Source: Planctomycetota bacterium
Lineage (GTDB): Bacteria; Planctomycetota; UBA8742; UBA2392
Length of the DNA stretch: 64,000 bases
NCBI GenBank assembly: GCA_020845475.1
Contig: JADLFN010000017.1
Coordinates: 1-64,000 of the forward strand
Direction: 5' to 3'
The notes beneath the pieces were generated by a model. That model saw only the letters and a list, made by a program, of their open reading frames with translations, did no database searches and was not told the origin of the DNA. Both the position numbers and the translations under genes were made by a program. Shown piece after piece: positions 29,819 through 38,737 of the stretch; within the stretch, counting starts at the first letter, position 1; each line of letters starts with the position of its first letter.

Positions 29819-32077
29819 TTACGAAATCGCGACTGCGCCGTCTTTCACTCCCACTTTCACCGTCGCATTGCGCGTTTTGTGCGACACCAGCCACCGTGCG
29901 AGCGGGGCCACCACCAGCCTTTCGATCGCGCGCTGTAAAGGCCGTGCGCCGTATTGGGCGTCGAAGCCTTCTTTGGCCACGTGCTCGACGAGTTCAGGCG
30001 AATATTCGAGCGTGAGGTTTGCGCGCACCATGCCTTCGCGCTGCGCCACTTCGTGCAGCTCTTTGCGCGCGATTTCGAGCACCACATGGCGCGAGAGCGG
30101 GGAAAACGCGACCACGGCATCGATGCGGTTGAAGAACTCCGGGCGAAAGTAAGCCATGGCCTCGGCCTCGTAATCCGGCGCGCGCGCGGCGCCAAAGCCC
30201 AGCGAGCCGCCGGATCTTGCGCCCAGGTTGCTTGTCATCACGATCAGCGCGCTCTGCAAACTGGTGGTGCGGCCAAAGCGGTCCGTGAGCCGGCCTTCGT
30301 CAAAGGCGCCCATGAGCACGTCAAACACTTCCGGCCCCGCCTTCTCGATTTCATCCAGCAACAGCACGCAAAACGGCTGCGCGCGCAGCTTGCGGATCAA
30401 GTCGCTGGGCTCGCCGTCGGGCGCGCTGAACAGGCGCTCGGCGCTGCCCGGCCCGTACTCGCTCATGTCGAGGCGAATCAGCCGATCTTTGGCCGCGCCG
30501 TGGCCGAACAGGTAGTGCGAAATCGCCTTGCTCAGCTCCGTTTTGCCAACGCCCGTGGGGCCGCAAAACAGCAGCACGCCAATAGGCCGGCTTGGGTCGT
30601 TCACGCCCGCCTTGAAACTGGTCAGCACGCCCGCGGCTGCCGCAACCGCGACATCCTGCCCGATCACTTCAAGAGCGAGTTCCTCGCGGATTTCGCTTTC
30701 ATCGAGCGGCAACTCGTCGCGCAAGAACAGTTCCGGCAGGCCGGTTTGCTCGATGAATTTGCGCAGCGCGTCCGATTGCCCCAGCTCGCGCGATTTCGTG
30801 GTACCCGCGCGCTCGAACAGAGAGTTGAGGAACTCGGTAGCCGCGCCGGGAAACGCGGCTTGCGGCAAGAAACGCTTGTGCAGGCGGTAAACGAGGGCGG
30901 GCAATTGCGCATCGTATTCCACGCGCAGGTTCTGTTTGTTGGCGGCCGCCACCTGGTCCAGCACTTTGATGGCCGCCCCGCCGGAGAACTGTTCCAGCGG
31001 CACCACCTGGAAACTCTCGACAAAGCCGGGCAACAGGCGGCGCACGGCGGCCAGCTCGGCGGGCGAGCATTCGGCCACCATGCGCAGCTCGCGGTGCTGC
31101 AAGAACGGGAGCAAGAACGCGCCCACGGAATCGCCCGCATCGAAGCCGCCCACGCGCAGCATCTCTATCAGCGAATCGGCGCAGAGCACGCCGTCGATTT
31201 CCGCAAGTTCGGCGAGCATTGCTTCGCAGCGCTGCTCCCATTGGCCCAGGTAGCGCATGCCGGCAATCACGCGTGAGCCCGAGGTTTGCCAGAACATGGG
31301 CGGGAGATTGCCCTGCTCTTTGTCGCGGGCGGGATCTTTGCGCGCGTCGCGCTCAATCTCGCGCGCGGCTGCGATCAGCAGACTCGTCTTGCCCGTGCCG
31401 CTTTCGCCCACGACGAGAACGTTTGCACGGTCCTCGCGCAGGCGGCGCACGATGTCGGCAACTTCGGCCTCGCGGCCAAATGCGCGCGAAGAAATCTTCG
31501 AGCGTTTTTCAGTCAATGGCTCGGCCACGATCGGCAGTGTATGCAGTTGCACAACGTGCCGCGTTTTGGGCGCGCGCGAAGGCGCCTTGACCATGATTTC
31601 CTCGAGGTGCACGTCTTGCGGCGGAAAGAAGCGCGCAATGGCGGCGGGCGGCAGGCCGGCGAGTTGTTCGCGCACGTAATGCGAGGCCAGGTCTTTGATC
31701 TGGTCTTCCTCGTGGCACGAGAATCGCAGCGAAAGCATGGGCGCGATGCAAAGCGTCAGCCCCGAGGCGTTCTTGCCCACGACGAAAGCAACGGGCAATT
31801 TCACCTGCTCGTCGCAGGGAAAACGGCGCGTGCGCAAGCGATACTCGGGGCGCACCTGCACGTGAAACCAGACGAGGCGCGGGTTCTTCAGTTCGCTGTG
31901 GGGAAAATTCCAATCCTCGTTCTTCTGGGTCCAGAGCAGCCAGTCCTGCAACGCCGAAAGCGCTTCATCGGCGCTTGATCCGAACGCAGCATTGTTCTGC
32001 TCATCCTCAACCAATGCGGCCGTAAAGAGCCCGGTGGGCTCCTTCCACAACAGAACAGGTATGCGCTCAATGGCCAT
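29819..32077 (-). CDS. Clp/ClpB-like double-AAA+ ATPase 1 (shortest paralog)
   Basis: NBD1 [14 protein letters not shown]; NBD2 [16 protein letters not shown], Walker B [11 protein letters not shown]; C-terminal D2-small domain; no Clp_N repeat. Confidence 0.88.
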   Translation of the reverse strand: [752 protein letters not shown]

Positions 32078-32078
32078 G

Positions 32079-38400: not shown

Positions 38401-38737
38401 GCGCGGGCAAGCGCGCCATGCGGGCTTCGCCGGCGGTCCAGGTCAGCACGTCAAAGCGCAACTCCAGCGGCTCGGTCCAGCAGGGAATGCCGTCGGGCTT
38501 ATCGAGTGTTAGCTTGATTTCGCGCAACTCCACTTTGCCCGCATGGCGGCGGCGATGCAGGTCAAGGCGCGTGGTTTGCTCAAGCATGGCGCGCGCGTTG
38601 GCGCCCAGCGAGCTGAGCACGCGTGCCAGCCCATCATTCACGCGCGAGATTTCAGGGTAAAGCAAACCCTCGGCCAGCAATACGCCTTCGCCCAGGTGCT
38701 GTACCACCGCCGGGATTTTGAAGCTGATCACCGCCAT
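35405..38737 (-). CDS. Clp/ClpB-like double-AAA+ ATPase 3 with C-terminal extension
   Basis: NBD1 [14 protein letters not shown]; NBD2 [35 protein letters not shown], Walker B [11 protein letters not shown]; ATGA overlap with AAA2 start. Confidence 0.88.
   Translation of the reverse strand: [1110 protein letters not shown]

Follow-up and report, generated by a model that had tools for sequence, protein, structure and literature searches.

A Clp-type ATPase trio with release-factor-derived C-terminal domains is conserved across bacterial phyla

The window analysed here is a stretch of 64,000 nucleotides from a Planctomycetota bacterium (assembly GCA_020845475.1, contig JADLFN010000017.1, positions 1 to 64,000). 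It carries three tandem genes for Clp-like double-ring AAA+ ATPases, named A3, A2 and A1 in the order of transcription. Two of the three proteins, A2 and A3, end in a domain that is derived from a bacterial class-I release factor (RF) and has lost the GGQ insertion and the stop-codon loop. The three genes are ancient paralogues kept together across phyla. We regard this account of the architecture and ancestry of the trio proteins as almost certain. A function of the trio linked to translation is plausible, though short of probable.

C-terminal domain

All three genes lie on the minus strand. A3 (35405..38737) encodes 1110 aa with an N-terminal domain, two AAA+ domains (D1 and D2) and the C-terminal RF-like domain. 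A2 (32151..35408, 1085 aa) starts within the stop codon of A3, so that the two genes share 4 nt (ATGA). A1 (29819..32077, 752 aa) follows after a gap of 73 nt, and consists of an N-terminal domain, D1 and D2, stopping directly after the D2 small domain. The initial annotation had reported three ATPases of these lengths and the ATGA overlap, and both were recovered at exactly the same positions. Its account of the domains needs correction, for it overlooked a C-terminal extension of about 350 aa in the two long proteins. This extension, absent from A1, is the reason why A2 and A3 are longer than A1.

The extension covers 368 aa in A3 (35408..36511, minus strand), where it has an RF-like helical domain and the fold of a stop-codon-recognition domain, and 344 aa in A2 (32154..33185, minus strand); neither has a GGQ domain. 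Among complete proteins, roughly 290-420 aa lie past D2 in A2, A3 and a group of related proteins that occur alone (solo relatives), versus about 25 in A1 orthologues. No C-terminal extension was found in the A1 orthologues examined. In some trios of the myxobacterial type (loci L215, L216 and L219), the third gene encodes about 1015-1025 aa with a C-terminal extension of about 270 aa.

A Pfam search of the genomes found PCRF (PF03462) above the curated cut-off inside two of the solo Clp relatives. At a permissive threshold, 15 of 36 C-termini matched this domain (best E 6.9e-19), and the two C-termini of the window, searched alone, had no Pfam match to it. The missing match reflects divergence of a domain that is still present, because profile and structure comparisons detect it. 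The solo C-termini aligned end to end with genuine RF1 and RF2 (hhalign 99.8%, E 9.4e-28, 305 columns), and the alignment took in a degenerate domain 3 without GGQ. The A3 C-terminus matched the solo C-termini (E 2.3e-11) and also the RFs directly (93.8%, E 1.8e-7). The A2 C-terminus is homologous to the RF-like domain of the solo relatives (98.0%, E 2.6e-13, 50 sequences) and matched that of A3 (96.2%, E 2.4e-9). Column-shuffled, reversed and unrelated profiles, used as hhalign controls, gave no match.

The AlphaFold2 model of the A3 C-terminus had a predicted local distance difference test score (pLDDT) of 89.8. When this model was compared with the PDB by Foldseek, the best 46 matches were all RF1, RF2 or mtRF1 (top E 6.6e-8). 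The TM-scores to RFs were moderate (0.2-0.5), which is expected because domain 3 is missing and the domains are arranged differently. The secondary structure of the C-terminal domain comprises the helical domain, the stop-codon-recognition domain, and closing C-terminal strands and a helix.

In common with RF1 and RF2 are the fold of the A3 C-terminus, the helical domain and the E-x-G-x-H strand, together with a DxRxG motif in A2 and the solo relatives. Unlike RF1 and RF2, the trio proteins have neither GGQ nor a PxT/SPF stop-codon motif, lack domain 3, and are fused to an ATPase. No GGQ was found at the proper position, and stray GGQ tripeptides in the C-termini were misplaced and occurred at chance level. 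Among the stop-codon motifs, no set had more than one row with SPF or VPxT, and no row had HTS.

The solo relatives (L073, L074, L075, L077, L078, L080 and others) are proteins of about 1110-1390 aa from the same phylum. They have the dead D1 and the GYVG-less D2 of the trio described below. Their C-terminus is nearly complete and RF2-like, with an FWD motif, a DxRTG motif and an AGDLD end, and is without GGQ. From the alignment, their N-terminus reads as HEAT-repeat-like, in place of the trio N-domain. The solo proteins look like a more primitive form of the fusion.

ATPase core

The D1-D2 core spans 36512..38137 in A3 and 33186..34793 in A2 (both minus strand). Active-site residues were read over 227 family proteins, with four readable ordinary Clp proteins as controls for the GYVG loop. 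The Walker A Lys of D1 was retained in all but a couple of these proteins, and the catalytic Glu of the D1 Walker B in none of the 227. Its position is mostly Asp in A2, including the A2 of the window, and mostly Asn or Ser in A1. The D1 Walker B of the window's A3 is degenerate as well; across A3 proteins the Walker B Asp of D1 is replaced by Gly in 55 of 58. The D1 Arg finger is gone from almost all triplet members outside myxobacteria, and from A2 of the window. The aromatic residue of the D1 pore loop is kept in A1 and mostly in A2; A3 has Gly, with an aromatic one position later.

In D2, the Walker A, Walker B, sensor 1, Arg finger and sensor 2 residues are invariant in every aligned family member, and both A2 and A3 of the window have them intact. 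The GYVG pore loop of D2 was present in all four readable ordinary Clp proteins but in no family member with a readable D2 Walker A, the window's A3 included. Given a dead D1 ATPase and the deletion of the usual pore loop from D2, it is doubtful that the trio threads substrates in the ordinary way. The residue differences are specific to each class and deeply conserved, and fit distinct subunits of one ring.

ClpP docks on ClpA, ClpC and ClpX at a loop just after D2 sensor 1. Most family members carry an [ILVM]G[FLM] tripeptide just past D2 sensor 1, which in the window reads LGF in A1, VGF in A2 and LGF in A3. Judged from this tripeptide, docking of ClpP by the trio is possible.

Pfam AAA_2 and ClpB_D2-small were matched by A1, A2 and A3 alike. 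The initial annotation had noted that Clp_N is absent from all three; consistently, none of them matched it in Pfam at E<=0.01. The spacing between the Walker A Lys residues of D1 and D2 is about 270 residues in A2, which thus has no coiled-coil M-domain like that of ClpB/Hsp104; in ClpB the D1-to-D2 Walker A spacing is about 400 aa.

Distribution and phylogeny

Representative genomes of GTDB were scanned with A2 residues 1-470 as the query. Matches came from Planctomycetota (including Zavarzinella formosa and Uabimicrobium amorphum), Verrucomicrobiota, Acidobacteriota, Armatimonadota, Eremiobacterota, Sericytochromatia, Saprospiraceae and Myxococcota. The triplet was found in at least eight phyla, with three linked members at 42 of the 80 returned loci; contig ends cut 24 of the remaining 38. 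The order A3-A2-A1 is recurrent, and adjacent trio genes often overlap by 4 nt. In the family of the window's genome, nearly all genomes have the trio in the same order, and one relative (G004) has no trio gene. This degree of conservation is far above chance, because both the open reading frames and the synteny are kept across phyla. Two trios have a split open reading frame, in A2 (L093, genome G014) and in A3 (L172), with the remaining trio genes intact; these are possible frameshifts or assembly errors.

Where a linked neighbour was missing, whole-genome searches located it elsewhere, so that genomes with scattered genes still have all three. One A1 was found in each of 12 tested A2 genomes, at 419-735 bits, well above paralogues. 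A3 was present in Saprospiraceae and in the other genomes checked in this way. The single Chloroflexaceae genome had a lone relative only. Co-presence without linkage argues for a joint function.

A FastTree tree was built on the D1-D2 core (232 rows). Ordinary Clp proteins lie outside, followed by the solo clade and then the trio. For non-myxobacterial trios, A1 forms one clade (99), A2 one clade (99) and A3 nearly one clade. The second Myxococcus gene groups with A2 (96), and the first and third are less firmly placed. The deep branching order is provisional, as FastTree tends to join long branches.

From these sequence data we predict that the trio probably forms an obligate hetero-complex. 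The initial annotation had suggested a dedicated hetero-oligomer, and this part gains indirect support from the ancient paralogue clades, the conserved order, the class-specific residues and the unlinked co-presence. Its expectation of a conserved triplet was also borne out by the other phyla.

N-terminal domains and gene surroundings

The N-terminal domains of the three proteins are homologous to each other. That of A3 (about 200 aa, 38138..38737, minus strand) aligns with the A1 and A2 N-domains by hhalign at 94% and 96.5%, respectively. The A2 N-domain (205 aa, 34794..35408, minus strand) gave a confident AlphaFold2 fold (pLDDT 89.8), which matched nothing in the PDB at E<=0.001. The A1 N-domain has 190 aa (31508..32077, minus strand). 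The N-terminal 200 aa or so of A1 had no Pfam match, in agreement with the previous description of a poorly conserved N-terminal domain. Two HicB-like repeats considered for the N-domain were dropped, as their sole support was a partial match of 55 residues with an E value of 0.4.

Upstream of the trio lie a DevABC-like transporter and a TetR/CecR regulator, and downstream a metallo-hydrolase and an acyltransferase/acyl-acyl carrier protein (ACP) synthetase. The initial annotation had suggested looking for a conserved partner in the neighbourhood; apart from the trio genes themselves, no flanking gene was kept in other genomes, within the family or across phyla.

Further observations concern other proteins of the window. 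At 19382-22861, a B12-binding domain, a MeaB-type G-protein and a methylmalonyl-CoA-mutase-like protein are fused in an IcmF-like architecture. A 1165-aa fusion of an MFS (major facilitator superfamily) transporter, an acyltransferase and an acyl-ACP synthetase lies at 25290-28787, and scores above the NCBIfam cut-off for acyl-ACP--phospholipid O-acyltransferase. Two adjacent large proteins of 829 and 806 aa (44025-46514 and 46636-49056) each have PDZ domains, and are possibly a tandem duplicate.

Discussion

We tentatively propose that the trio is a three-subunit remodeller of the Hsp100 type, sent to the translation machinery by its GGQ-less RF domain. A1, A2 and A3 would form one hetero-oligomeric double-ring ATPase of the Hsp100/Clp type. 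D1 would serve as an ATP-bound scaffold that chiefly holds the ring together, and D2 would be the motor powering it. During a block of translation, the catalytically dead RF domain would dock the machine on the ribosome or on a release-factor partner. The ATPase would then pull apart or strip the stalled complex or nascent chain, and the remodelled material might be passed to ClpP. The former label of an unfoldase of unknown function was incomplete, since ordinary threading is in doubt and the overlooked RF-like C-terminus points to translation.

A published response to a ribosome inhibitor bears on this proposal. In Myxococcus xanthus, MXAN_4823-4825 is a three-gene operon annotated as Clp ATP-binding subunits (PMC6617876). 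After 8 h of chloramphenicol these genes were induced with log2FC of 3.57, 2.67 and 2.61, and they remain up in adapted cells (PMC6617876). The proteins of the Myxococcus trio measure about 1135, 1130 and 767 aa, with no extension on the shortest. The C-terminus of the first protein matches both RFs (E 2.2e-11) and A3 (E 9.6e-20). We take MXAN_4823-4825 as the trio because no run of three Clp-like genes other than the trio was found in M. xanthus AM003, and because the next Clp open reading frame, about 5 kb beyond the trio on the opposite strand, fits MXAN_4832.

Several points weigh against the proposal. The MXAN_4823-4825 operon is apparently the orthologous triplet, identified by its genome position and not by sequence. 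The same study found 1920 genes altered after 8 h of chloramphenicol (PMC6617876), so the induction may be unspecific; it supports a link to the ribosome and is no proof of one. The match between the A2 C-terminus and true RFs is weak (hhalign 79%, E 1.6e-5), and the case for A2 depends on intermediates. The main weakness is that binding of A2 and A3 to the ribosome cannot be assumed, because the parts facing the decoding centre (PxT/SPF) and the peptidyl-transferase centre (GGQ) have been lost. The RF-like arm may instead bind a different component of translation, or a partner of another kind altogether. In the comparison of neighbourhoods across phyla, no ribosome, ribosome-rescue or ClpP gene was conserved beside the triplets. 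Moreover, with a C-terminal domain at the D2 face, ClpP docking could be impeded.

Some of these points favour a different explanation, in which the trio is a hetero-oligomeric unfoldase for protein quality or regulation, possibly coupled to ClpP, and the RF domain has been turned into an adaptor or a module for oligomerisation that plays no part in translation any more. This is a real possibility. The RF has lost its two functional tips, translation genes are not conserved as neighbours, the tripeptide at the ClpP-docking position is found in most members, and the genome has a ClpP gene, on a contig unlinked to the trio (C77). However, ordinary threading needs the D2 GYVG loop, which is missing, and D1 is unable to hydrolyse ATP. 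The solo relatives keep a full-length RF-like domain including the degenerate domain 3, and the probable M. xanthus orthologue is induced by a ribosome inhibitor.

An anti-phage or inter-bacterial conflict system, with the Clp-like trio as sensor or effector, would fit the patchy presence across phyla, and PADLOC returned weak matches to DolB and PDC-M37B. These matches are confined to the generic D2 AAA+ region, and were rejected as evidence of defence. No defence gene is conserved beside the trio, and almost every other genome of the window's family has the trio, which makes such a role improbable. Matches to PHROG 4871 were likewise rejected as a sign of phage origin, since what they pick up is the generic ClpA-like ATPases that large phages carry.

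The idea that the trio takes apart a contractile sheath of the type VI secretion system (T6SS) kind, as ClpV does, is largely refuted. The genome does encode a T6SS sheath, but on another contig (C38), where a Clp ATPase of its own, presumably ClpV, lies about 7 kb away. As the initial annotation had stated, no ClpP or T6SS gene adjoins the trio. No neighbour is conserved near the triplets, and the trio scores far below the cut-off of the NCBIfam ClpV model. Ordinary ClpA, ClpB or ClpC paralogues from a recent tandem duplication, or decaying copies, would share the core fold and the tandem layout of the trio, but are refuted by the separate clades conserved across phyla, the invariant D2 active site and the NCBIfam scores, which fall far short of the Clp equivalog cut-offs (at best 376 bits against 993 for ClpA, the model that gives A2 its best score, and 366 against 1232 for ClpB); the earlier view that these are not routine ClpA or ClpB proteins was therefore correct. 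Three further, more ordinary Clp ATPases are encoded elsewhere in the genome.

Because existing annotation calls the trio proteins simply Clp ATPases, the class has escaped notice. It would be an Hsp100 class that acquired an ancient RF to serve as its targeting arm; at least eight phyla have it, and the genetically tractable M. xanthus is among its bearers. If the arm binds ribosomes, the trio would be a new bacterial machine for translation quality control; if not, it would be a striking re-use of a release factor for another purpose. Either way, the trio raises the question of how a double ring can do work when its D1 is dead and its D2 has no pore loop. The broader idea that many bacteria have a ribosome-docked three-subunit AAA+ machine dismantling or clearing blocked translation complexes, optionally with ClpP, is speculative and rather unlikely. 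If true, it would mean a rescue pathway apart from transfer-messenger RNA (tmRNA), ArfA/B and RqcH, and bacteria would have their own equivalent of Pelota plus Cdc48, with both parts in a single polypeptide.

The combination of a Clp ATPase with an RF-derived tail was found described nowhere in the open literature, either as a fusion or as a trio system; domain databases may list the architecture uncommented. The text of a detailed survey of bacterial RF paralogues does not mention Clp or a Clp/RF fusion (PMC6514570). Compared with known Clp proteins, the trio resembles ClpA and ClpC in having two AAA+ rings without an insertion of M-domain size and an [ILVM]GF-type tripeptide past D2 sensor 1. 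Unlike the trio, ClpA and ClpC have Clp_N, an active D1 and the GYVG loop in D2, whereas the trio consists of three obligate paralogues with an RF-like C-terminus on two. With ClpB/Hsp104 and ClpV it shares the double AAA+ ring, the D2-small domain and the D2 catalytic residues, but it has no M-domain, no GYVG and a dead D1, and is unlinked to a sheath.

Among release-factor relatives, the ribosome-rescue paralogues PrfH and ArfB are also diverged bacterial members, but they keep the catalytic Gln and have no ATPase fusion (PMC6514570).

Eukaryotic ribosome rescue uses a GGQ-less RF paralogue, Pelota/Dom34, and the double-ring ATPase Cdc48/p97 as separate proteins. The trio is alike in outline, pairing a GGQ-less RF paralogue with a double-ring AAA+ motor, and the likeness is one of analogy only. 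Pelota belongs to an unrelated release-factor superfamily, whereas in the trio the RF part and the motor are joined in one bacterial polypeptide.

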